DNA of 64,000 bases, from the NCBI GenBank assembly GCA_031277615.1, contig JAITMC010000034.1:1-64000 (forward strand), read 5' to 3'. Every line of letters starts with the position of its first letter. Position 1 is the first letter of the stretch. The notes beneath the pieces are model-generated. The model was given only the letters and a program-made list of their open reading frames with translations, had not been told where the DNA came from and did not search any database. Positions 1,738 through 60,777 of the stretch are shown one piece after another. Made by a program: the position numbers and the translations under genes. This DNA is from Chryseobacterium sp. Lineage in GTDB: Bacteria; Bacteroidota; Bacteroidia; Flavobacteriales; Weeksellaceae.

Positions 1738-3396
1738 ATGCAAAGCAACCGGATGATACTTGCGAATATCATGATGTTGTTTTCACTTTTTGCTAACAAT
1801 GACAAGCGGAAAAAAGAAGCCAAAACATTTACTGTCGGCAAAGGATATAAAATCAATAGTGACATCCTGGAAATGGGAATTTTCCAAAGGAATACTGATC
1901 ACTACAGAGATACTTTTTTCTTACAGCAGCAGCAGGAGGTACAGCAAAGAGTAGAGGTAGTTCGTAAAGAAGGCGATCCCAATGCAACAGAAACCGTTAC
2001 AAAAGACCTGGATGAAGGATCACAATTTCACCCGCTGGATATGGTATGCCTCATAGATATTAATGGGGAAACAGAAGAAACTTACCTGGTTCCTGCTATT
2101 TATCTGAAGGCTCTGGCAGATGAAAGGGAATGGGCTGTCGTTCATCAGAATATCCGTATTGCAGCCAACCTTGTTGCCATTGTGCTTGGCGTTGCTACCT
2201 TGGCAACTACGGGAAATCCATACTTTATCTTATTAGCTGCCGCGGATATTTCTTTGGCAGGCGCAGACCTTACAATACAGGCATTTAAAGAAGAAATTGC
2301 CAAAATTGGCAAAGATCCCAATAATCCTGGAGCAAAATCTGAAGGAGAAATTTTTTTAGAAAACTGGGAAAAGATTTATTTGGCAGGAGGTTTTGCATTG
2401 GCAGGGTTAACGATTGTTGGCGGATTTTATATCGGAGCAGCAAAATTACTTGTGAAAATTGGAGATGGAAGTGCCAAAAATTATCTTAAAACTTTGGTGC
2501 TGAAAGCAGCATTGGAAACCAATATCTCCAATTTCACAAAAGATACGATAAAAGTTGTAGAGCCTAAAGAAATTTTTCTGAGTTCACAATATAGGGCAGT
2601 GGGAGAGGAAATGGCCGAAAACGGAGTGTTTTTCTTATCCGGAAAAAAGGAAGGAAAATTTGCAGAAAGCTATGCTGCTGTGTATAAAGGTGAAGTTATA
2701 CATGAGTTTACTAAAGCCGAAATGCACAATTTCTACAGAAAATGGAGTAAATTGCATGGAGAAGAGTTAATAGAAGAATTAGAATATTTAGGTGGTCATG
2801 TACCACCAGGACATTCTATTATAACAACAACTGTTAAAGCTGAAATAGAAGCTTTTGAAGAAGGAGAAAAACAATTTTTAAAAACAATTGCAAAGCCATT
2901 TGAGAAAATAAAAGAAGCGATGTCCTATTTTAACCATAAATCGACAGGTGATGCAGTAGTTCAAATAGATATAACGAATTGTGGTAATACAATAGACGTT
3001 CTGATAGAATATTTAAAAACAGGAAATTTACGAGTAGCCACTCCATCTCTATCTCAAACGTTTGAAGAAGTATTAGTAAAATGTGGAGGAGGTCAATTTG
3101 CTGATATTACTGGAATTCCTAGATTGGAATTTCTACTAGGAGATGATGAAATTGCAATTATTTATGGTGTTAGAGAATATAATCTAAGTGGGCAAGTAAA
3201 TGGTCATTATTTTGTAGCGGTAAAAGTGAATAAGGAAGTACATTTATTAGACGGACAATCAGGAGAGGCCGCTATATACGATGTTAAAGGTATAAATAAA
3301 ACTAATTATGAAAAGTTTATAAAAAGAAATTATAAAAAATTTATGTATACAAAAGTAGGTAAAATAAAAATAAATAAAAATTATGTTGACAGATAA
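1738..3396 (+). CDS. C-terminal part of polymorphic toxin with papain-fold (Tox-PL/glutamine deamidase-like) domain
   Basis: The frame is open upstream of this ATG to about 1500, so 1738 is probably an internal Met of the ancestral gene. Two hydrophobic segments (about residues 140-180 and 213-240) precede a linker. The last ~150 residues carry the papain-fold triad pattern: Cys415 in DITNCGNTIDVL, His490 in NGHYFVAV, and Asp505/Gln507 in LLDGQSG. This matches toxin-tip families of papain fold that act as deamidases or peptidases; the exact target is unknown. The stop overlaps the first immunity gene by 14 bases. The 3' third is visibly more AT-rich than the 5' part, as expected for an exchanged toxin tip. 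Confidence 0.75.
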   Translation: MQSNRMILANIMMLFSLFANNDKRKKEAKTFTVGKGYKINSDILEMGIFQRNTDHYRDTFFLQQQQEVQQRVEVVRKEGDPNATETVTKDLDEGSQFHPLDMVCLIDINGETEETYLVPAIYLKALADEREWAVVHQNIRIAANLVAIVLGVATLATTGNPYFILLAAADISLAGADLTIQAFKEEIAKIGKDPNNPGAKSEGEIFLENWEKIYLAGGFALAGLTIVGGFYIGAAKLLVKIGDGSAKNYLKTLVLKAALETNISNFTKDTIKVVEPKEIFLSSQYRAVGEEMAENGVFFLSGKKEGKFAESYAAVYKGEVIHEFTKAEMHNFYRKWSKLHGEELIEELEYLGGHVPPGHSIITTTVKAEIEAFEEGEKQFLKTIAKPFEKIKEAMSYFNHKSTGDAVVQIDITNCGNTIDVLIEYLKTGNLRVATPSLSQTFEEVLVKCGGGQFADITGIPRLEFLLGDDEIAIIYGVREYNLSGQVNGHYFVAVKVNKEVHLLDGQSGEAAIYDVKGINKTNYEKFIKRNYKKFMYTKVGKIKINKNYVDR

Positions 3397-10607: not shown

Positions 10608-13600
10608 ATGTCAGAAAAACTTAATTCCGGAACATACGAAATTATTCAGAACCGTCTGAATGAGCAGAAGAATGATCTGATCCAAAGACTTCAAAAGCTT
10701 AATGAAAGCCGTAAAGGGATCTTCGGAGGAATAGATTTTTCTCTTATTGCCAATGAAAGGATCTCCACAGATCATAACTGTATTGCCAAAGATATTTTCT
10801 CTCTCGGCAATCAGCTGATATTTGGGTCGAATGCTCATCTGGGGCTGCAGACGGAAATTAATATTTCAGATGTTTTCTCCATATACAGAATCAATAAAAA
10901 CCGGTTTGAGCCTCAGGATTATACCCTGATCAACGATGAAATTTTTATTGATGAATTCAAAAACCTTTACAAATACTACAGGAATACCTTCTTTGCAAGG
11001 TTTGCTTTTACAGAGAATTACCTTTATATGGTATTTCAGCTTTCGGAAAGCACCTCAGATATCAAAGCTTTTAAATGGCTTATCAAAGACAATCAGCTGA
11101 TCTATGTGGATTCAAGAAGTGCTTCGGAAACTTCATATCCGCAGCAGCATGGCTTTGTATGGACAAAAGCAACAAGAGATATGCAGCGGTCCGGAAAGCA
11201 TCCGCATATTTCCCTGGCCGATAAAGTCTTTGTTGAAAGCATCGGCGGAGATATTACCATTAAGGTAGAGGACAATACAGATACCGGAAAAGGAATCTAT
11301 TCCGAAGATGTTATCCATAAAGACCAGAATCTGGACGATGCAGAAATCCATTTCTGTGATCTTGACAACCTTGTTTTGTTTAAAATAAAGCCTTATCAGG
11401 AAACCGAACGCTATTTTATTTATAATCACAAGGAAAAAACCGTTTCCAGAGCAGATGCCCTTAAATATTCAGGACTGTTGCTTCCGGAAAATCAGGGTGT
11501 TTTATTCTCCAACGGATATGCTTTGCAGACAGGAGGTCTGAAAGTCATTTCCCAGGATCAGAACAGGCTGTATTATCTGAAAACCGTCACGGAACCGAAT
11601 GGCGAGAACTTCCTGTATGTTTTCTATGATGATAAAACCAATAATTATCAGCTGATCTCCTACAATATCATTACCCAGACAATAGAAACTCCGATCCGTT
11701 GCAGCGGATTTTCTCTTCTGAATGATGGGAAACTGATCTACCTCAGAGAAAGCATTGAAACCACCAAACATCACCTGGCCCAGATCTGGCAGACTCCGTT
11801 TTCCAAAGAGCTGCAGCCGAATGCTGAAAAAGCAGACAGCCTCATCTATAAGATCGGAAACAAAGATATCGTAAGAGTAATGGCCGAAAGCCAGGAGCTG
11901 ATTACGCTGCTGAACAAAAAAGATTCCTACAGCGGATTATACGATGATATCGTTAAGCTCTCCACTTTTATTCTGGATACCTATTACTTCTTAGGTGAAA
12001 ACGAGGTTCAGAAACTAGACCAGCCTCTTAAAGAGATCCGGAAGATTGCCCATTCTGCGATCAATGAATATGAAAAAGTTGTAGAGCAGAGAAAAAGCAC
12101 TGAAGAAGCTTTAGAGAAAATAAAACTTTCCTGCCAGAAAATACTTGATGATACCAAAAGGCTTCATTATGCACAGCTTACAGAATATATCGATGCCCTT
12201 TCCCAGATCAGAGCCCTGAGAGGAGAAGTAACCGGAGCCAGGGAGCTGAAATATGCAGATACTACGCTTCTTGATGCCCTGGAAAAATCTTTGGCAGAAC
12301 GCTATACGGAACTTTCCAATGCCTGTGTTGATTTTCTCCTGCAGGAAGGAGCTTTGCTGCCATATGAGGAAAAAGCCCAAAATATTTCAGAAGAGATTAT
12401 TGGGCTTCAGAAAGCTATTGATGCAAAAACCATCGAAGAAAACATCAATACCCTTTCGGGACAGCTTGAACTGCTGGTGGATATTGTGAACAACCTTAAA
12501 ATAGAAGATACCTCACAGTCTACCCAGATCATTGAAAATATTTCCCGGATCTTTGCCCGCCTCAATCAGGAAAGACTGGAGCTCAGCAAAAGAAAAAGGG
12601 AAATCTCCGGAAAAGAGCTCGCCTCAGATTTTCAGGCCCAGATCACCCTGTTTGATCAGGCGGTAATTAACTTTCTGGAACTTTCCCAGACGCCTGAAAA
12701 ATGTGATGAATACCTGACTAAACTTTCCATCCAGCTGGAGGAAATGGGCACCAAATTTGTTGATTTTGATGAATTTATTCAGAAAATTGAAAGCAAAAGA
12801 GAAGAAGTTTACGGACACTTTCAGAATAAAAGAGTCCAGCTTACCGAATCGAGAAACAAAAGAACCCAGAATCTTTTTGAAGCCGCTCAGAGAATCCTGA
12901 AATCCGTTCAGACCAAAGCCGAGTCTTTTGATTCTGAAAATGAAATCAATGGTTACTTTGCGTCGGATCTGATGGTTGAAAAAGCACGGGATCTTGCAAG
13001 ACAGCTCGCGGAGTTGGAAGATTCTGCCAAATCAGAAGAAATTCTCACCCTTTTAAAAACCTCCCAGCAGGAAACCGTAAGAAAGCTGAAGGATAAAAAA
13101 GAGATCTATGCAGACGGCGAAAGCATCATTGCGCTGGGCGATTACAAATTTGCCGTCAACCAACAGAAACTGGATCTTACCCTTGTGCTCAGAAATGCAC
13201 AATATTATTATCACCTTACGGGAACAAGCTTCTACGAACCGCTTCATTTTGATACAACTGAAGATTTCAGAGAAGTATGGAACCAGGAATTTATTTCAGA
13301 GAATACACAGGTTAAGAGATTTGAATACCTTGCCTGGAACGTGTTCGCTACCCATAAAAAAGTGGCTTCAGAAGCGGAAAATGAAGCCGCCGTTCAGCAG
13401 TTTACCGCGGCACACTTTGGAGAAGGCCTTGTGAAAGGCGTTCATGATCAGGATGCACTTATCATTGTTCAGAAACTTCAGCAGATGCATAATGAGCTCG
13501 GACTGATGAAGTTTTCTGCCGGAGAAAGAGCTTTGGCACAACTGTTCTGGTTCTTTTTAAAAGAGGACCGCAAGGCTTATTATAACAGACAGTTTGATGT

Positions 13601-15410
13601 CGCAGTCATTATTTCCGGAGCATTTTCGCATGCTCAGGGATTTGATTATCTGCTGAAAGAACTTTCGGAAGAGATCAGAATATTTGCATCCGAAAGCCGG
13701 TTTCTGGAAGATACCGACAGCTTCAATGCGGCTTTGTACCTGAAGCAGGAAGACCGTGAAAATTTCCTGATTTCTGAACATGCAGCAGCTTTGTATGAAC
13801 TGTTTTTAAAAGAACTGAAAGAGAAAGGCAAAGACCTGGAATTCATAGAACAGCTCAAAATGTTATATGCATATCCTTCTGCCTGCTATTATACCGCAGA
13901 AAGCGCATTGAAAGCCTTTGATCCCGCTGCGAATGAAAATATGATCCGGGAAACAGCCGTATTTCTGATCACTCAGAAGTTTGATCCGAAAAATGTAAGG
14001 CACGTTTCGTATGAAACCATCATTAAAGGACTTAAATCTCTGGAAAAAGATTCGGAATACAACCTTAATTATTTTGAGTTTGCCACCCGTTTAAGCCAGT
14101 TCAATACAGTTACGGTTCCAAAATATAAAAAACTGCAGGAGCTGAAGTACAATTGGGTCGGGGAAAAGAAAAAAGCCCTTAAAGTTGATACATTTCAGCC
14201 TCAGATATTGAGCTCATTTGTTAGAAATAAACTCATCAATGATGTCTATTTTCCTCTGATCGGGGCGAACCTGGCCAAGCAATTGGGAACAGCAGGAGCT
14301 GATAAAAGAACAGACCGTATGGGAATGCTGCTTTTAGTATCTCCTCCGGGCTACGGAAAAACGACCCTTATGGAATATATGGCCGAAAGGATGGGACTGG
14401 TTTTTATGAAGATCAACGGACCGTCTGTAGGCTATGATATTGTTTCCACAGATCCTTCTGAAGCCAAAAATGCAGGCGCAAGACAGGAGCTTGAAAAACT
14501 GAATCTTGCGCTGGAAATGGGAGATAATGTGATGCTGTACCTGGATGATATCCAGCACTGCAACCCGGAATTCCTGCAAAAGTTCATCTCTCTTGCCGAT
14601 GGCCAGAGAAAGATAGAAGGAATCTACAATGGGGAAAGTAAAACCTATGATCTCCGTTCTAAGAGATTCTGCCTGGTAATGGCGGGGAATCCCTATACGG
14701 AGAACGGGGAGAAGTTCAAAATTCCGGATATGCTGGCCAACCGTTCAGATACCTATAATCTGGGTGAAATTTCAGGGTCAAGAACCGATCTTTTCGATCT
14801 GAGCCTGATTGAGAATTCCCTGATGTCCAATGAATATCTGACAAGGCTTACCCAACCGGGAATGGAGAACCTTTATGAGCTGTATGACTGTGTTGTAACG
14901 GATAATCCTGCCGATAATCTTAAAGGAAATTTCAGCTCCAGTGAGATTGCAGATTTCAGGGCTGTTCTGGACAATACCATCACGGTAAGAAACATGATCC
15001 TGAAAGTCAACAGGGAGTATATTGCCTCAGCAGCAATGTCTGATGATTACAGAAATGAGCCTCCATTCAAACTTCAGGGATCTTACCGTAATATGAACAA
15101 GCTGATCACACAGATTCAGCCGATCCTGAAAAAGAACGAGGTCGTGCAGATCGTGTTGGATCACTATCAGAATGAATCCCAGACCCTGACCACCGGTGCG
15201 GAAGCTAATATGCTGAAACTGAAAGAACTGATTGGTGTCCTCTCAGGAGAAGAAAATGAGCGCTGGAATGAGATCAAAAAGACTTTCGTAAAAAATAAAA
15301 CCTTAAAAGGATTAGGAGAAAACGACCGGATGTCCCAGATCGTAGCACTTCTGGCTCAGTTCGGAGACGGGCTGCAGGGAATCAGAGAAGCTTTGGGAAA
15401 AGAAGAATAA
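10608..15410 (+). CDS. Giant AAA+ ATPase with DUF3686-type N-terminal region
   Basis: The 1600-residue protein has a beta-rich N-terminal region (~50-470) like DUF3686 (DNA-repair-ATPase-like), long coiled-coil and helical stretches (~480-900) and a C-terminal AAA+ module. The Walker A is GYGKT at ~1248-1252 and Walker B VMLYLDD at ~1308-1314, followed by an Asn-containing sensor region (LVMAGNPYTENG). No membrane segment is present. Despite the DNA-repair label of the family, the operon with PspA and flotillin argues for remodelling of membrane-coat assemblies, as other AAA+ enzymes do for ESCRT-III-like polymers. That role is inference. Confidence 0.85.
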   Translation: MSEKLNSGTYEIIQNRLNEQKNDLIQRLQKLNESRKGIFGGIDFSLIANERISTDHNCIAKDIFSLGNQLIFGSNAHLGLQTEINISDVFSIYRINKNRFEPQDYTLINDEIFIDEFKNLYKYYRNTFFARFAFTENYLYMVFQLSESTSDIKAFKWLIKDNQLIYVDSRSASETSYPQQHGFVWTKATRDMQRSGKHPHISLADKVFVESIGGDITIKVEDNTDTGKGIYSEDVIHKDQNLDDAEIHFCDLDNLVLFKIKPYQETERYFIYNHKEKTVSRADALKYSGLLLPENQGVLFSNGYALQTGGLKVISQDQNRLYYLKTVTEPNGENFLYVFYDDKTNNYQLISYNIITQTIETPIRCSGFSLLNDGKLIYLRESIETTKHHLAQIWQTPFSKELQPNAEKADSLIYKIGNKDIVRVMAESQELITLLNKKDSYSGLYDDIVKLSTFILDTYYFLGENEVQKLDQPLKEIRKIAHSAINEYEKVVEQRKSTEEALEKIKLSCQKILDDTKRLHYAQLTEYIDALSQIRALRGEVTGARELKYADTTLLDALEKSLAERYTELSNACVDFLLQEGALLPYEEKAQNISEEIIGLQKAIDAKTIEENINTLSGQLELLVDIVNNLKIEDTSQSTQIIENISRIFARLNQERLELSKRKREISGKELASDFQAQITLFDQAVINFLELSQTPEKCDEYLTKLSIQLEEMGTKFVDFDEFIQKIESKREEVYGHFQNKRVQLTESRNKRTQNLFEAAQRILKSVQTKAESFDSENEINGYFASDLMVEKARDLARQLAELEDSAKSEEILTLLKTSQQETVRKLKDKKEIYADGESIIALGDYKFAVNQQKLDLTLVLRNAQYYYHLTGTSFYEPLHFDTTEDFREVWNQEFISENTQVKRFEYLAWNVFATHKKVASEAENEAAVQQFTAAHFGEGLVKGVHDQDALIIVQKLQQMHNELGLMKFSAGERALAQLFWFFLKEDRKAYYNRQFDVAVIISGAFSHAQGFDYLLKELSEEIRIFASESRFLEDTDSFNAALYLKQEDRENFLISEHAAALYELFLKELKEKGKDLEFIEQLKMLYAYPSACYYTAESALKAFDPAANENMIRETAVFLITQKFDPKNVRHVSYETIIKGLKSLEKDSEYNLNYFEFATRLSQFNTVTVPKYKKLQELKYNWVGEKKKALKVDTFQPQILSSFVRNKLINDVYFPLIGANLAKQLGTAGADKRTDRMGMLLLVSPPGYGKTTLMEYMAERMGLVFMKINGPSVGYDIVSTDPSEAKNAGARQELEKLNLALEMGDNVMLYLDDIQHCNPEFLQKFISLADGQRKIEGIYNGESKTYDLRSKRFCLVMAGNPYTENGEKFKIPDMLANRSDTYNLGEISGSRTDLFDLSLIENSLMSNEYLTRLTQPGMENLYELYDCVVTDNPADNLKGNFSSSEIADFRAVLDNTITVRNMILKVNREYIASAAMSDDYRNEPPFKLQGSYRNMNKLITQIQPILKKNEVVQIVLDHYQNESQTLTTGAEANMLKLKELIGVLSGEENERWNEIKKTFVKNKTLKGLGENDRMSQIVALLAQFGDGLQGIREALGKEE

Positions 15411-55204: not shown

Positions 55205-55646
55205 TATCGTCTGGAAAATCAAAAACTTTGATGAGTTTACGGTGCCTGAACTGTATGCGGTACTGAAAGCCCGTATTGATGTATTTGTGATTGAACAGAA
55301 CTGTCCTTATCCTGATCTGGATAATTACGATCAGAAGGCTGTTCATATCTGGGCCGAGGAAAATGGAGATATCCTTGCGTATTGCCGGGTTTTCGATAAG
55401 GGAATAAAATATAACGAAACATCTATCGGAAGAGTTCTTACTACGGAGAAGGCAAGAGGCAGGAGCTTAGGAAAGCAGCTGATACAGTATGCTGTAGAGA
55501 CGATAGAAAACCGTTTTCATACCACAGCAGTAAGAATTTCCGCACAGGATTATTTATTAAGATTCTATGCAGGATTCGGATTTGAAGATACCGGAAAAAA
55601 ATATCTGGAAGACGATATTCCGCATACGGAAATGATCAGAAAATAA
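55197..55646 (+). CDS. ElaA-like GNAT acetyltransferase
   Basis: ElaA-type [24 protein letters not shown] at the start, [20 protein letters not shown] (acetyl-CoA loop ARGRSLG) and [14 protein letters not shown]. Start ATG 55197 lies within the last codons of engB (a TTG three bases earlier is less likely). 149 residues. Substrate unknown. Confidence 0.9.
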
Positions 55647-55686
55647 AGAAAAGCGAAGAAATATATTCTTCGCTTTTCTTTATTTA
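55641..55686. terminator. Strong terminator after the ElaA-like gene
   Basis: A perfect 20-bp stem (arms AAATAAAGAAAAGCGAAGAA and its complement) with a 6-base loop; A/T tracts on both sides make it suitable for both strands. It begins within the last codon region of the GNAT gene. Confidence 0.92.
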
Positions 55687-55766
55687 TGGTGAGTGTTTTT
55701 AGTTTTTAGAATGGATGCCGGAAGAGGGATATTGGAAATTAATTATAGACTGATATACTTCTTCAT

Positions 55767-56057
55767 TTATCTGCACCCTGAACAATAGGAACGGTCCACA
55801 TACTGTTTGCTGTTTCCGGAATAATAGTAACAGCCGCCTCTTTTGCCCACATAAAGCTGATTTCCGTTATAGGTACATCCTCTGCCTGAGGAATAAGACG
55901 AAAAACTTCTTCGGGTGCTGCTTTTTTTGTTTTTTGAGGTTTTTTTCTTCGGCTTTTTGGTGGAAAGTTCTGATTTGACCGTTGTATGTATTGCCGTGAA
56001 GCTGGCCGGAAGTAATAATCCGAAGCCTAATAAGGTGGTAAATAGTAGCTTTTTCAT
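55767..56057 (-). CDS. Small exported basic, Cys-rich protein (PBCV basic adaptor-like repeat)
   Basis: A signal peptide (MKKLLFTTLLGFGLLLPASF) is followed by a strongly basic Lys/Ser segment (KKPKKKTSKNKKSSTRR) and a C-terminal domain CTYNGNQLYVGKRGGCYYYS with four Cys in total (GC, GGC, SYC, SGC). The YxGxRGGxYY core resembles the PBCV-specific basic adaptor family. A NarL-type operator lies 148 bases upstream of the start. Role unknown. Confidence 0.75.
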   Translation of the reverse strand: MKKLLFTTLLGFGLLLPASFTAIHTTVKSELSTKKPKKKTSKNKKSSTRRSFSSYSSGRGCTYNGNQLYVGKRGGCYYYSGNSKQYVDRSYCSGCR

Positions 56058-56175
56058 AGTAAAATTGTTTTATTGAATACTGCTGTCGTTTGTCTTCTAA
56101 TGCTCATCAGTAACCTTAATTTTTCATTATGGATGCAACAATGGGATTACTTGATGTTTCATCTTTTTATCGATG

Positions 56176-56220
56176 TAAAAATATCAACCTTTGAAATCTG
56201 ATCCTTACGGGAATCCGTAA
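56176..56220 (-). promoter_or_regulatory. 7-2-7 inverted-repeat operator and -7-like element upstream of the small exported protein
   Basis: Inverted repeat TTACGGG-AA-TCCGTAA at 56205-56220 (plus-strand reading; one arm mismatch). On the minus strand a TATTTTTA element lies at 56176-56183, its centre 33 bases from the repeat centre. The same geometry occurs at 59233-59277. Confidence 0.6.
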
Positions 56221-56221
56221 A

Positions 56222-56251
56222 AACAAAAAGCCTTTCAAAAAATAAAAGGCT
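56222..56251 (-). terminator. Terminator of the NarL-type two-component operon
   Basis: Stem AGCCTTT / AAAGGCT with a T-rich tail on the minus strand (AAACAAAA on the plus strand), 20 bases after the regulator stop. Confidence 0.75.
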
Positions 56252-56270
56252 GTATGATGAATCTGAAGTA

Positions 56271-56936
56271 TTAAATAATCCCAAGATCTTTACAAAAAGC
56301 AATAAGCTGTTCATTGCTGTTTACCCGCAGGGCTTCTTTTAAGCCGTTGAGCCTTTTTTCAACACTGCTCAGGCCACTGGGAGTAATTCCTTTGGATTTC
56401 AGATGCTCCGGGATGTTTTTTTGCAGAACTCCTTTAGCGAGAAGTGAGACCAGGGTAATATCATAGGCCGAAAACTCGTAACTGTTGAGTTTTTTAACTT
56501 CCTGTTTCAGGTCGAAGGATAAATAATTTTCATTGATAAAAACGGAAGCAATAGACTTTTTCAGCTCTTTTGAGTCATGTCTGGCTTTACGGACGTAGCC
56601 GTTGATCTCATACTGCGTAAACAGAGATTCAATAATTCCTGATTTATGTTCTGCGGAAAATACAATCACTTTGAGGAAAGGCTGCAGCTCGCGTATTTTC
56701 TGAATGAGATCGATACCGTTTTTTATTCTCTGATGATGATGGTCTTCCTCGAAATAAAGATCAGTAATCAACAGATCGTAAAGGTTATTTTCCCGGATCG
56801 ATTTCTGAATTTTGGCAAAGGCATCATCGCAGTAATCTACATAATCCGCATTGGTGATATTAAGGTCTTCCAGTGTTTTCTGTACAGAAATACTGCTGCT
56901 TTCATGGTCTTCGGCTATTAGAACTTTTTTGAACAT
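56271..56936 (-). CDS. NarL/FixJ-family response regulator
   Basis: Receiver domain (~1-130) with Asp10 pocket (IAEDHE), phospho-acceptor Asp59 (LLITDLYFEED), Ser in VIVFSAEH and Lys in GYVRKAR. A LuxR-type HTH follows (~155-221: LAKGVLQKNIPEHLKSKGI, SSVEKRLNGLKEAL). 221 residues. The partner kinase is 11 bases upstream. NarL-type proteins bind 7-2-7 inverted repeats, and two such repeats flank this operon. Confidence 0.9.
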   Translation of the reverse strand: MFKKVLIAEDHESSSISVQKTLEDLNITNADYVDYCDDAFAKIQKSIRENNLYDLLITDLYFEEDHHHQRIKNGIDLIQKIRELQPFLKVIVFSAEHKSGIIESLFTQYEINGYVRKARHDSKELKKSIASVFINENYLSFDLKQEVKKLNSYEFSAYDITLVSLLAKGVLQKNIPEHLKSKGITPSGLSSVEKRLNGLKEALRVNSNEQLIAFCKDLGII

Positions 56937-56947
56937 GGGTTTTCTTT

Positions 56948-58621
56948 TTAAGAAGCGGGAAATGAAATATTGATTTTCAGTCCTTTTTCTGTTTTGTTGT
57001 CAAAAATAATAGCTCCTTTTATAGTATCAATACGGGAAACCGTATTCGTGAGGCCGTTTTTATGAATCAGATCTCCTGAAATCCCAATTCCATTATCCGT
57101 ATACTGGATCTGGACGAGGTTTCCGGTTCTTTCAAATTTAAAAATCACACGGGTGGCCTGGCTGTGTTTTTTCATATTGACCAGCAATTCCCGGATGATC
57201 TGGTAGAGTTCTTCAAAATCCGATGGAGAAATACCGGACCAGACTTCATGTTCATTGCCTACCGTATAGGTTTCTGTTTCATCATTTTTGAAGGACGCAA
57301 TAAGGGAAGAAATTTTTTCTTTAAAATCTTTCTCGCTGTTGATCTGATCCAGCTTTTCATAAGAAAGATCCCTGGATTTCTCGTAGACAAATTCCAGTTC
57401 GTCAAGTGCTTTTTCTTTATCGAAGCTTTCCTGGTTTTCTATTTTTGTCATCACCTGATAAATACCGTTGGCTACCACATCGTGTACTTTTTTGGACATT
57501 TTGAGCTCGGTGTTTTTCACTTCGAGTTCTTTTTCCTTTTTTAATCGTATTTGGCGTTTACGGTATGATAATACGGTGATAATTATAATTAATACTAAAG
57601 CTGCTGAAAGAAAATATTGCTTTAAAATATGATTCTCATTTTTTATTTGCTCAGCCATAAGGGTCTGATTCTTTGTCTTTTCTTTTTCAATTCCATATCT
57701 GAAATAAGCGAACTGATTTTTAGCATTGTTTCTGGCAATCTGAGTACTATCATTGATTTCCTGAAATCTCTTAAAATATTTCTGATAATTATTTTTGTCC
57801 AGATTTATAATTTTTTGAAGAGCTTGTAATTGATCTTCAGGATTTCGGATTTCAATAGATGTTTTCAGCATTTTATTAGCAAATTCCAATGATTTATTCT
57901 TGTCTTTTTCAAAAAAGAAGTTTGCCAGAGTTGCATAGCTGGAGTTTAGGCCTTCTAAGTCATTGTTTTTTTCTCTAATTTCTAGCGCGTGGTAAAATTC
58001 AGGTAATGGATTATAGCTTTTATCATTTATTTGCTTGGCTCTTGCTAAATTGTTTAAAGCTCTGGATTTATTTTTATAGTCTTTATCCTGAATAGCATAT
58101 TCTAAATATTTTTGGGCCATTTTTGGGTTTCTCTGGCTTAAAAGCGCATCACTCAGATTGTTATAATATATGTATCTATACTTATTATTGTTGCTGTATT
58201 TTATAGCATTTTTATAAAAAGCCACTGCATTATCATAGTTATATAAAAATGCGGATGCAATTCCCATATTATTATAGCTCGCAGCTAAGTCTCTTTTGGT
58301 TATGCTGTCATTTTCATTTTTTAAAAAATGATTAGCTTCTAATGATGTCTCAATACTTCCATAAAAATCTCCATAATGTGTTTGAATAATGGCCATATTT
58401 ATTAATGATTGAGCGATACCTGTTGAGTCATTTGATTTTAAATAATCATCCTTAGCCAAATTATAGTAATAGAAGGCAGAATCAGATATTTTTTTTTCTC
58501 TAAACTCTCTCGCTTTTTGATGGTAGATGTTTTCCGTACCTGTTTTTTGTTGACTAACATTTTTCTTATGACAAGATAGTAGAGCTATCAGCAAAAAGAG
58601 AAAAAGATTTATTTTTTTCAT
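56948..58621 (-). CDS. TPR-containing NarX-type sensor histidine kinase
   Basis: Lipobox-like N-terminus (LFLFLLIALLSCHKK), ~300 residues of TPR repeats outside the cytoplasm, a membrane helix (YFLSAALVLIIIITVLSY) and a cytoplasmic kinase with the His in MSKKVHDVVANGIYQVMTKI and an HATPase domain (ELLVNMKKHSQA, DNGIGISG, GLTNTVSRI). This is the HisKA_3/NarX type expected with a NarL-type regulator. 557 residues. First gene of the operon. Confidence 0.9.
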   Translation of the reverse strand: MKKINLFLFLLIALLSCHKKNVSQQKTGTENIYHQKAREFREKKISDSAFYYYNLAKDDYLKSNDSTGIAQSLINMAIIQTHYGDFYGSIETSLEANHFLKNENDSITKRDLAASYNNMGIASAFLYNYDNAVAFYKNAIKYSNNNKYRYIYYNNLSDALLSQRNPKMAQKYLEYAIQDKDYKNKSRALNNLARAKQINDKSYNPLPEFYHALEIREKNNDLEGLNSSYATLANFFFEKDKNKSLEFANKMLKTSIEIRNPEDQLQALQKIINLDKNNYQKYFKRFQEINDSTQIARNNAKNQFAYFRYGIEKEKTKNQTLMAEQIKNENHILKQYFLSAALVLIIIITVLSYRKRQIRLKKEKELEVKNTELKMSKKVHDVVANGIYQVMTKIENQESFDKEKALDELEFVYEKSRDLSYEKLDQINSEKDFKEKISSLIASFKNDETETYTVGNEHEVWSGISPSDFEELYQIIRELLVNMKKHSQATRVIFKFERTGNLVQIQYTDNGIGISGDLIHKNGLTNTVSRIDTIKGAIIFDNKTEKGLKINISFPAS

Positions 58622-58686
58622 GGCGCATTACTTTATAATGCAAAATAACAAAAAGGATAGATTTGTACAATCTATCCTTCATATCA

Positions 58687-58917
58687 TTATGGTTGCGTAT
58701 ATGGTGGGGGAGTTTGTCCGGTATTTCCTGTAGTACTTCCTCCGTTTCCTGTTCCGTTTCCATTTCCGCCTACAGGAGGGTCTCCCGGATTTATCCCGGC
58801 TCCGCCACCTCCGCCGCTCTGTACGGTTACCGGGTTCTGGCCGTTGTTATCATTTCCTGTATGGGCATTATTATTTGAGAATGCTAAAGCAATTAGCATT
58901 AGAATGAACTGTATCAT
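58687..58917 (-). CDS. Small Gly/Asn-rich exported protein
   Basis: A hydrophobic start (MIQFILMLIALAFSNNN) is followed by ~60 residues of low-complexity Gly/Asn/Pro/Thr sequence (QSGGGGGAGINPGDPPVGG, TPPPYTQP). It could be a short secreted or surface peptide. It is upstream of the TPR kinase on the same strand with a 65-base gap and may be cotranscribed. No family recognised; composition bias lowers certainty. Confidence 0.55.
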   Translation of the reverse strand: MIQFILMLIALAFSNNNAHTGNDNNGQNPVTVQSGGGGGAGINPGDPPVGGNGNGTGNGGSTTGNTGQTPPPYTQP

Positions 58918-59232
58918 CTTCTTGAAAAATTTAAAAATTGGGTACTTCTGCAGTTGCCCGCGAAACCGATCACAGGTAGAGCTGCACGTTGAAAAAAATT
59001 GAAGCGCTTCTAAATTTTTGGGAAGTGAACCTTCAAAAACGGAGGAGAAAACATCTGCTTCCCAACCCGGAGTTTTACCTCCGTTTTATCTGGTGATTTG
59101 AAATCAGTTTTGTATTTTTGTTTTTATAATGTTTTGTTTGTCACTGATTTCTATGCAAAGTTGTAGAAAATGCCCACACGTGACTAAGACAAAACATGGA
59201 CACCGATAGACAGAGAATGGACAGGCGCGGTG
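58918..59232. other. Intergenic region with a long-loop hairpin
   Basis: No ORF supported. A 10-bp stem AAAACGGAGG (59036-59045) / CCTCCGTTTT (59078-59087) with a 32-base loop, and GGAAGTGAACCTTC inside the preceding bases, suggest a structured leader or small RNA. TATTTTTG at 59113-59120 could be a plus-strand -7 element but lacks a spaced -33. Confidence 0.4.
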
Positions 59233-59277
59233 TTACGGAAATCCGTAATGTGGTATGAAGAAAAATTACCTATTTTG
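59233..59277 (+). promoter_or_regulatory. 7-2-7 inverted-repeat operator and -7-like element of the gene at 59300
   Basis: A perfect inverted repeat TTACGGA-AA-TCCGTAA at 59233-59248, then TATTTTG at 59271-59277. The repeat centre is about 43 bases upstream of the predicted start near 59284, the usual position for an activator. It differs at one base from the site at 56205-56220. Confidence 0.65.
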
Positions 59278-59299
59278 TAACGGCTGTAAAAAACTAAAT

Positions 59300-60157
59300 A
59301 TGTCCAAAGTAAAACTGTTAATTCATGAGGTATTTAAGCTGGGAAAGGAAGGCTCAGGAAGGGATACGAAAAATGGAATAGCTTTGTATTTAAGCCTATA
59401 CTTCAGTGATGCATTGAATTTTGAGATTGCAGACAGAACATTAGTCAGGTATTATGATGCGTATGTAGCTGAAAACGGGACGAAAGTAAATATTGAGCCC
59501 TATAAGCTTGATAAGTTGAGCCAATATGTCGGTTACAGGGATTTTTCTGATTTTTCAAGAACCACCATTAAAACAGATGAGAATGCCAATTCTACAACGG
59601 TAAGGATAAGTGTGGATAAAGATGAGGAGGCCATTGCTGAAAATCTGTCTAAAATCAACATCAATATTACCAATGAGCAGCATTTTAAGATGCCGGATTT
59701 TATGAAAAAGAACGGTATGGGAATTATGGAAATTGCTTTGCTTATCTGTCTGGTTACCGGAAATGTCCTGTTTTCCAATAATAAGAAAGTGAATAAAGAC
59801 TATACAGGAGCTTTGGGTTTTATGTCGATGAAAGATTCTTCTGCTGATAAGAAATATATGTACTGGAACGGAGAAAGATATATTGGGACTGACAGCAGTT
59901 ATATCAGGCCAGGGCTGACCATAATTGCCATGAACAGACATGATTTCATGTATTTCAGGAAAATTATGAGAAAAGATACTTTGACAGATCAAAATGCCGC
60001 TGGAAAGACATGGTATTCAAAATATAATAATGAAGTTGAATTTTTTACGGATGATGGGGTAGATCCGGATACCGGAAAGGAATTGAGAAAGTCAACCTCG
60101 TGGATTATTTTCAAATACGCAGGAAAACATAAAGATTCCATAGAAGTCGAGGAATAA
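59300..60157 (+). CDS. Hypothetical protein with one membrane helix
   Basis: Start at ATG 59300 (MSKVKLLIHEVFKLGKEGSG) is preferred: the upstream ATG 59255 would precede the predicted -7 element. The N-terminal ~90 residues form a helical cytoplasmic domain (YLSLYFSDAL, LVRYYDAYVAENG), then a basic/acidic linker, one helix (GIMEIALLICLVTGNVLF) and ~110 exported residues with Trp/Tyr-rich motifs (YMYWNGERYIGTD). No family recognised. Possibly a signalling or anchoring protein in the NarL-type regulon. Confidence 0.75.
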   Translation: MSKVKLLIHEVFKLGKEGSGRDTKNGIALYLSLYFSDALNFEIADRTLVRYYDAYVAENGTKVNIEPYKLDKLSQYVGYRDFSDFSRTTIKTDENANSTTVRISVDKDEEAIAENLSKININITNEQHFKMPDFMKKNGMGIMEIALLICLVTGNVLFSNNKKVNKDYTGALGFMSMKDSSADKKYMYWNGERYIGTDSSYIRPGLTIIAMNRHDFMYFRKIMRKDTLTDQNAAGKTWYSKYNNEVEFFTDDGVDPDTGKELRKSTSWIIFKYAGKHKDSIEVEE

Positions 60158-60196
60158 AAAAAGAGAAAGACATGATTAAGGTGTCTTTCTCTTTTT
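60158..60196. terminator. Bidirectional terminator between convergent genes
   Basis: A perfect 15-bp stem AAAAAGAGAAAGACA / TGTCTTTCTCTTTTT with a 9-base loop follows the stop of the hypothetical gene and faces msrA. Confidence 0.9.
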
Positions 60197-60222
60197 ATTG
60201 GTGGAAATCCTACAGGAATTTT

Positions 60223-60777
60223 TTATTCGGCATTCAGCATACCCAGTTCTCCATAGTGTTTTTTAAACTTCTGGATCTTTGGGCCTACTACTGCGCTACA
60301 GTAAGGCTGTGTTGGATTTTCATTATAGTATCCCTGATGATACTGCTCTGCAGGCCAGAATTTTTCAAATGGGGCAAGTTCTGTAACGTAGGTTCCGGAC
60401 CATCTTCCTGAAGCTTCAGATGCTTTTAATGCTTCTTCTGCTTTAGCTTTTTCGGCATCATCTTTATAGTAAATCACAGAACGGTATTGGGTTCCGATAT
60501 CATTGCCCTGCCTGTTCAGCTGGGTAGGATCATGAAGGAAGAAAAAAACGTCCATAAGCTGTTCATAGGAAATAATTCGGGGGTCATACGTAATCTGTAC
60601 AACCTCTGCGTGTCCTGTTTCACCGGTACAGACTTCCTCATAGGTAGGATTATCCTTATGCCCTCCTGAATATCCGGAAACGGCAGACTGTACCCCTTTC
60701 AGCATATTAAAACAGCTTTCCACACACCAGAAACATCCGCCTCCGAAAGTGATCTGCTCAAATTGATTATTCTCCAT
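60223..60777 (-). CDS. msrA: Peptide-methionine (S)-S-oxide reductase MsrA
   Basis: The catalytic motif GGGCFWCVE (Cys15) is near the N-terminus, followed by SGYSGGHKDNPTYEEV, GHAEVVQITYDP and YHQGYYNENP. 184 residues, cytoplasmic (no signal peptide). It reduces methionine-S-sulphoxide in damaged proteins. No MsrB domain is fused. Monocistronic. Confidence 0.96.
   Translation of the reverse strand: MENNQFEQITFGGGCFWCVESCFNMLKGVQSAVSGYSGGHKDNPTYEEVCTGETGHAEVVQITYDPRIISYEQLMDVFFFLHDPTQLNRQGNDIGTQYRSVIYYKDDAEKAKAEEALKASEASGRWSGTYVTELAPFEKFWPAEQYHQGYYNENPTQPYCSAVVGPKIQKFKKHYGELGMLNAE

Follow-up and report, generated by a model that had tools for sequence, protein, structure and literature searches.

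A probable peptide-responsive two-component system of Chryseobacterium and its predicted regulon rich in phage-defence genes

The window analyzed here, a stretch of 64,000 nucleotides (nt) from a Chryseobacterium genome (contig JAITMC010000034.1), encodes a sensor histidine kinase (HK) and a response regulator (RR) flanked by two matched palindromes (Table 1). Both 16-mers lie exactly where the initial annotation had located them, with the RR gene between them, and the claimed −7-like elements, TATTTTTA and TATTTTG, are present at the two sites. Directly upstream of the HK gene, between the operator and the kinase, sits an open reading frame (ORF) of 76 amino acids (aa) that had been overlooked and that encodes a predicted peptide signal precursor. 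The palindromes very probably mark promoters switched on by the adjoining two-gene sensor system, and the locus as a whole is probably a two-component system that responds to a peptide and activates a regulon in which phage-defence genes are frequent. The evidence computed directly, described below, consists of the sites with their synteny and co-occurrence, the geometry of the promoters, the identities of the targets and the co-variation of peptide and sensor.

Table 1. Features of the two-component locus, with positions in the window
Feature	Position	Strand	Description
Small basic exported-looking protein	55767..56057	−	Cys/Gly-rich, no confident family; predicted target of operator 1
−7 element TATTTTTA	56176..56183	−	21 nt downstream of operator 1; from sequence and spacing rule
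Operator 1, TTACGGATTCCCGTAA (minus-strand reading)	56205..56220	−	Precedes the 55767 gene; lies 3′ of the terminator-like hairpin that follows the RR
Terminator-like hairpin	56230..56251	−	Behind the RR gene, with a T-rich tract next to it on the downstream side; by eye
Response regulator (RR)	56271..56936	−	NarL/FixJ fold, predicted operator binder; from domain, fold and co-occurrence
Sensor histidine kinase (HK)	56948..58621	−	Lipobox-like N-terminus, TPR sensor, one transmembrane segment, H-D motif, HATPase_c
Predicted peptide signal precursor, 76 aa	58687..58917	−	Hydrophobic N-terminus, Gly-rich linker, C-terminus TGNTGQTPPPYTQP
Leader RNA element	58992..59108	−	Very conserved, upstream of the peptide gene; 78/101 loci (70/93 non-redundant)
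Operator 2, TTACGGAAATCCGTAA	59233..59248	+	Upstream of the divergent 59300 gene (P59)
−7 element TATTTTG of P59	59271..59277	+	From sequence
P59	59300..60157	+	Divergent gene conserved in the module; its N-terminal domain is helical and is joined by one hydrophobic segment and a C-terminal domain

Further analysis of the palindromes revealed matched inverted repeats, as the initial annotation had proposed, but not the heptamers in 7-2-7 arrangement typical of NarL sites. The fixed bases form a 6-4-6 unit, TTACGG-N4-CCGTAA, and the seventh base varies. Allowing up to three mismatches, 1.57 matches are expected in the window and 10 are found; the two sites, each counted on both strands, account for four of them. 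TAnnTTTG is the −7 element of Bacteroidota, and it was sought on both sides of 149 unique exact sites drawn from 194 loci. It begins exactly 21 nt past the site in 84 of the 149 and at 20, 22 or 23 nt in seven more, compared with six other matches elsewhere within 60 nt and seven scattered matches in a control region 200 bp off the sites. The 33-base distance between centres, which had been read from the two sites of the window, is thus a genus-wide rule. The −7 box of P59 has its TA at 22 and its G at +29, which is the same G distance as that of TAnnTTTG elsewhere. As the palindrome centre is ~33 bp from the −7 centre, the site is placed near −42, the position of a class II activator, and in the consensus of the 84 sites with 21-nt spacing the −33 position is occupied by the 3′ arm of the box. 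Overall, the fixed spacing is the geometry of class II activation.

The RR possesses a receiver domain (PF00072, E 4e-10), in which residues E9, D10, D59, S94 and K117 are invariant among 30 sequences. A profile search aligned it with RcsB over most of its length. The full-length AlphaFold2 model, with a predicted local distance difference test (pLDDT) score of 91, matched the folds of full-length RcsB (also in the DNA-bound form), VraR, LiaR and EvgA, with TM-scores of ~0.5–0.7. The assignment to the NarL/FixJ type hence relies on the receiver sequence and on a C-terminal GerE-type helix-turn-helix (HTH) that is recognized by fold, not by sequence. Among named records, Chryseobacterium indologenes CI_885 comes closest, with an RR that is 85% identical.

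The scan of the window's own and related genomes, proposed by the initial annotation, placed the site far above background, with the pattern read backwards as control throughout. In the own genome (4.82 Mb, 46 contigs), TTACGGNAATCCGTAA has five exact matches against 0 for the control, and TTACGG-N4-CCGTAA has six copies. Across 118 genomes of the genus the latter occurs 543 times against 15, with at least one copy in 113 genomes. The full promoter, TTACGGN4CCGTAA-N20-22-TAnnTTTG, was found in 109 of 197 family genomes and 12 of 33 genera (control 0), and an RR orthologue (E ≤ 1e-30) in 125 of the 197. Both are present in 107 genomes, the RR alone in 18, the promoter alone in 2 and neither in 70 (Fisher p 1.6e-33, with p-values ignoring shared ancestry); the corresponding numbers outside the own genus are 63, 14, 2 and 68. 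Three genomes of the genus set have no RR match, and two of them (99% complete) have 0 sites. At the class level, the full promoter was found in 9 of 295 genomes, three of which belong to the own genus (control 0).

Synteny points in the same direction. In 41 loci aligned on the RR, the site (at most one mismatch) is conserved just 3′ of the RR in 37 and ahead of the divergent P59 gene in 37. A set of 101 loci, which counts some genomes twice and is reduced to 93 by removing identical repeats, has the site in the stretch scanned 3′ of the RR in 87 loci (79 of the 93 non-redundant), and 86 of these 87 sites have TAnnTTT at 21 nt. Moreover, in all eight loci where the RR is duplicated in tandem, a variant box separates the two copies. 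Altogether, co-occurrence, synteny and geometry strongly support the earlier proposal that the sites are predicted binding sites of the intervening NarL-type regulator, lie near −42 and define its regulon. Another family of the order has a genome in which three promoters of the same class are found within 1.4 kb (G429:C1:1887527-1888893; loci L295, L300 and L305), which suggests arrays of such cassettes.

To define the targets, 38 sites away from the module, with a −7 element on one side, were taken, giving 43 downstream protein clusters of at least 100 aa. At least 14 of the 43 clusters match PADLOC models at 1e-10, compared with 1 of 50 window ORFs (p 8e-5; 50 of 51 were scanned, 10608-15407 being left out). 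Ten of the 14 were assigned singly, and four (Cyclase, HORMA, RmuC-type and SngB) come from a tally that names no members; the matches of L180 and L156 are weak or partial. The models comprise CBASS cyclase, CBASS HORMA, GajA, PDC-S06, PDC-S71, PDC-M30A, SngA and SngB (Shango), IetS, type II and III methyltransferases and an RmuC-type protein, in addition to weaker PDC-S02 and PDC-S54. RmuC may be housekeeping, and without it 13 of 43 clusters remain (p 2e-4 against window ORFs). Pfam adds Schlafen/AlbA_2, TerD, TerB_C, PLD, HSDR_N and BrxC/D domains. One site of the own genome lies ahead of a DUF262-type protein that matches Orf5 and type IV restriction models (L003). The genes at 59300 and 55767, which the initial annotation had named as targets, are retained as predicted targets, but the two account for little of a regulon in which phage-defence genes are numerous.

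Exact boxes also precede ORFs starting MKNLK(R/K)ISKEKL at L017 and L020, with no TAnnTTT at 20–22 nt; these small proteins resemble GG-leader bacteriocin-like peptides. Near position 1500 of L032, an exact box with 21-nt spacing is followed by a 58-aa protein beginning MSDDLSKKRPQDATKVNV, which is presumably DUF3606-like. The related site in L016 has an HTH-regulator-like ORF on its opposite side.

The promoter is also found at the trans-activating CRISPR RNA (tracrRNA) of Cas9. The own-genome site at C1:46138, with a 21-nt spacer, points at the RNA ATTTTGAAAGCAATTCACAATAAGGATTATTCCGTTGTGAAAACATTTA, which runs divergently from cas9 and has a terminator-like hairpin behind it. In reverse complement, the start of the CRISPR repeat found downstream of cas9 and cas1 is GTTGTGAATTGCTCTCAAAAT, and its first 20 nt are complementary to the tracrRNA antirepeat bar one base. 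Two genomes of another genus have the same RNA beside cas9, where the box has a 20-nt spacer; no CRISPR array was found in the stretches examined from these two genomes. The tracrRNA core occurs in 84 of the 197 family genomes, and 30 loci of these genomes were surveyed for the box. At 51–61 nt ahead of the core, a box is present with 0 mismatches in three loci, at most one in eight and at most two in 15, compared with 0, 0 and 0 in a control stretch 590–700 nt upstream. Six more loci have a 3-mismatch box at the same position and nine have none. Two of these nine genomes lack the RR, and in place of the box they have, by eye, TTTG at a distance resembling that of a −33 element. As the other seven boxless loci have the RR, control of the tracrRNA would be frequent, not universal. 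In L289 (5720–5780), the tracrRNA-cas9 box also has TATTTTTA ~21 nt away on the cas9 side (by eye), and may thus drive both tracrRNA and cas9.

The HK consists of a TPR region followed by a single hydrophobic segment near residues 336–356 and the kinase core. The TPR_12 match (E 9e-6) is under the Pfam curated cut-off, and the lipobox, the transmembrane segment and the H-box were assigned by eye. Homologues of the peptide share a plan composed of a hydrophobic start, an Asn-rich stretch, a Gly-rich variable linker and a Pro-rich C-terminus. They precede the HK in 90 of the 101 loci (82 of 93 non-redundant), 87 of which were found by script and three by hand (L139, L150 and L152). The order of peptide and HK genes is kept in Pedobacter, Chitinophaga, Niabella and Flavihumibacter.

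Co-variation was examined by Mantel comparisons, for which the 90 loci with a peptide were reduced to 80 by dropping RRs at least 98.5% identical, and to 61 by keeping those with an RR more than 68% identical to that of the window; the C-terminus was taken as the last 22 residues of the peptide, and for some kinases an internal ATG served as the start. In the 61 non-redundant Chryseobacterium-type loci, the peptide C-terminus correlates with the sensor half of the HK (r 0.70, p 0.0005), compared with 0.06 for the RR (p 0.07), 0.04 for P59 (p 0.18) and 0.02 for the N-terminus of the same peptide. The N-terminus gives 0.19 with the RR (p 0.002) and 0.05 with the sensor (p 0.19), and the sensor and kinase halves of one HK ORF are uncorrelated (0.06). 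Over the 80 non-redundant loci, the correlation between C-terminus and sensor is 0.65 after allowing for the RR. Two C. lathyri strains with differing peptide C-termini are 96.8% identical in the RR, 90.9% in the kinase and 39.8% in the sensor. Conversely, L136 and L153 share identical C-termini and sensors at 95.7%, with RRs at 56.8% and kinases at 47.7%; in all, two pairs combine identical C-termini and sensors 88–96% identical with RRs just 48–57% identical. Sensor-peptide blocks are thus swapped between species in a pherotype-like manner. Such a polymorphism pattern is described for comQXPA pherotypes (PMC4008528).

Several observations weigh against a peptide-responsive regulator of phage defence. 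The strict promoter is missing from 18 of the 125 family genomes with the RR and present in 2 of the 72 without it. Within the genus, G053 (87% complete, 410 contigs) has seven sites and no detected RR; G102, G104 and G130 have an RR match, that of G102 holding a stop, yet no site. Pfam GerE (PF00196) did not match the RR, whose HTH region is too divergent. Among the 28 RR-bearing genomes of the 30 tracrRNA loci, seven have no box and six only the 3-mismatch box. Many targets, including both in the window, have no known defence role. Against clusters on the other side of the sites, the defence enrichment is borderline (14 of 43 versus ~6–8 of 52, p 0.02–0.055). Here 52 of 58 clusters were scanned, leaving out the L236 kinase homologue, the L198 RR, the L147 P59, two from L239 and one from L286; 10 were scanned singly, two of them with matches, and the rest of the ~6–8 come from the first member and from a tally for this side, in which capP, IetA, RmrA, a type I restriction subunit and two Cas9 are listed. 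The control is conservative, given the tendency of defence genes to cluster and the tracrRNA promoters that precede the two Cas9. As for the peptide, its C-terminus reaches nominal significance with the kinase core over the 61 loci (0.06, p 0.03), and over the 80 loci including other genera it also correlates with the RR (0.37) and the kinase (0.36). The N-terminus has no basic n-region, which leaves the export route in question. In addition, linkage alone could move the neighbouring C-terminus and sensor together; that the blocks end within the peptide gene on one side and close to the HK membrane segment on the other argues for a ligand-receptor pair.

An alternative that we consider unlikely, albeit worth serious attention, leaves the RR and its regulon standing, but has the HK sense another cue, such as envelope damage or phage adsorption. 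The small gene would then encode an accessory modulator of the HK, and the co-variation would stem from block recombination. The peptide C-terminus does adjoin the sensor, secretion of the peptide is a prediction, and a lipobox-like TPR sensor could equally sense envelope stress. In 20 loci, the stretch between 420 nt ahead of the peptide start and 12 nt beyond it has no box with up to three mismatches other than the P59 operator, so direct autoinduction of the signal is improbable, which also suits an accessory protein. However, neither the peptide N-terminus, in the same gene, nor the kinase core, in the sensor's own ORF, co-varies with the block. The two pairs with matching C-termini and sensors on divergent RRs, and the gene order kept out to Pedobacter and Chitinophaga, also favor the ligand.

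It is very improbable that the palindrome is bound by another regulator, for example P59 through its helical N-terminal domain, or a protein encoded elsewhere, with the RR merely co-travelling. P59 is present in 95 of the 101 loci (87 of 93 non-redundant), and co-occurrence cannot separate it from the RR, because both belong to the same module. It has no Pfam or NCBIfam match, and its AlphaFold2 model is poor (pLDDT 57.7) apart from a confident helical N-terminal stretch. However, P59 carries a hydrophobic, membrane-like segment, whereas within the module a match to a DNA-binding fold belongs to the RR (the fold search covered the RR, not P59). Moreover, the box has the architecture bound by ComA, and the extra variant box accompanies the tandem RRs in every such locus.

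That the palindromes are integration or recombination sites for mobile defence cassettes, an idea considered first since defence genes flank them, is scarcely credible: ~ten variable families stand behind the site 3′ of the RR, some genomes have tandem site copies, and an ORF on the far side of the L279 site (2207–3043) resembles a tyrosine recombinase by eye (no systematic recombinase search was made), but the fixed 21-nt −7 spacing, seen also at the tracrRNA and, with a shifted box, at P59, speaks against it, as do boxes upstream of the tracrRNA that degenerate in place.

The leader RNA consists of ~115 nearly invariant nt, with indels between species, and its core has one exact copy in the own genome. 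A search of 55600-60300 gave no Rfam family at gathering score, and RNAalifold on 20 leader sequences returned a low covariation term (+0.37), with changes on both sides in three pairs; the pairing ACGGAGG/CCTCCGT has one position with a GC-AT exchange. Such conservation suggests an additional post-transcriptional input. Hairpins similar to that after the RR gene are seen in most listed loci (by eye). The region 3′ of the RR (55767-56204 in the window) is a hot spot, where ~ten unrelated families stand behind one promoter in different species. Many of the hot-spot genes encode small Cys/His or DUF1508 proteins, and three of 10 representatives have a Pfam match (DUF1508, HSDR_N and a weak TerB). 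These genes are candidates for new defence factors.

We propose that the locus is likely a peptide quorum-sensing system of Bacteroidota, similar to ComXPA, by which phage defence is licensed. The 76-aa product would be exported, and its C-terminal part would serve as the ligand of the periplasmic TPR domain of the HK. The HK would then phosphorylate the RR at D59, and RR dimers would bind TTACGG-N4-CCGTAA centred near −42 and recruit RNA polymerase to promoters that appear to have a good −7 element (TAnnTTTG) and no −33 element. The predicted targets are the divergent P59 within the module, the variable gene 3′ of the RR, the Cas9 tracrRNA and unlinked defence operons. Since high cell density would mean high phage risk, the build-up of the peptide might switch the defences on, and different pherotypes could keep the signals private. 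P59, being a target, could give feedback.

In a broader sense, we lean somewhat towards a peptide-pheromone family of Bacteroidota, made up of peptide, periplasmic-TPR kinase, ComA-like regulator and P59, with exchangeable pherotypes, in which the operator-promoter is a plug-in cassette that puts freshly acquired defence genes and the tracrRNA under density control. If so, one regulator would act on CRISPR-Cas9, CBASS, Gabija, Shango and restriction systems, and peptide communication would exist in a phylum for which none is reported among the literature matches listed. Among these matches, judged by titles and abstract starts, we found no description of this peptide family, box or regulon. 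The 45-bp promoter pattern, with 0 reversed matches in 197 genomes, offers a genome-wide handle for finding new defence genes; many targets and most small proteins of the RR hot spot have no known function.

The RR shares its fold and receiver residues with RcsB and other NarL/FixJ regulators, but differs in an HTH too divergent for Pfam GerE and in a box unlike the NarL heptamers. ComA of Bacillus is also a NarL/FixJ-type regulator, and ComQXPA likewise has peptide gene, kinase and regulator in a row on the same strand. Both systems combine a polymorphic peptide and sensor with a conserved kinase core and regulator, giving pherotypes. By contrast, no ComQ-like isoprenyl transferase adjoins the peptide gene, whose neighbours in the window are P59 and the HK; the predicted sensor consists of a periplasmic TPR domain and a single transmembrane segment, whereas the sensor half of ComP has several. 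The peptide, with its Pro-rich C-terminus, is unrelated by eye, and the system belongs to Bacteroidota and has a defence-rich regulon. The RRNPP(A) receptors (Rap, Rgg, NprR, PlcR and PrgX) have a cytoplasmic TPR domain without a kinase domain and bind imported peptides. They resemble the HK in the TPR domain as proposed peptide receptor, but here its predicted place is beyond the inner membrane, as part of a kinase and after a lipobox-like start.

The box itself is a 6-4-6 palindrome one symmetric base off the ComA box consensus, given as TTGCGGNNNNCCGCAA (PMC3793909). Quorum sensing is described to control CRISPR-Cas in Serratia and Pseudomonas, the Serratia systems being acyl-homoserine lactone-controlled types I and III (PMC10013973). 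Adaptive immunity would similarly be under a density signal here; the differences are the peptide, the type II tracrRNA and the unrelated defence systems reached through one box. In Streptococcus agalactiae, CovR is described to repress a cas promoter within a virulence regulon (PMC12216829). There too, as predicted here, a response regulator acts directly on the Cas9 locus, but the present system differs in its activator geometry at the tracrRNA and its defence-rich regulon. CRISPR-Cas9 is described in the same source as assumed to be autonomously transcribed (PMC12216829); in contrast to this assumption, the tracrRNA promoter of many Chryseobacterium genomes holds a regulator box.

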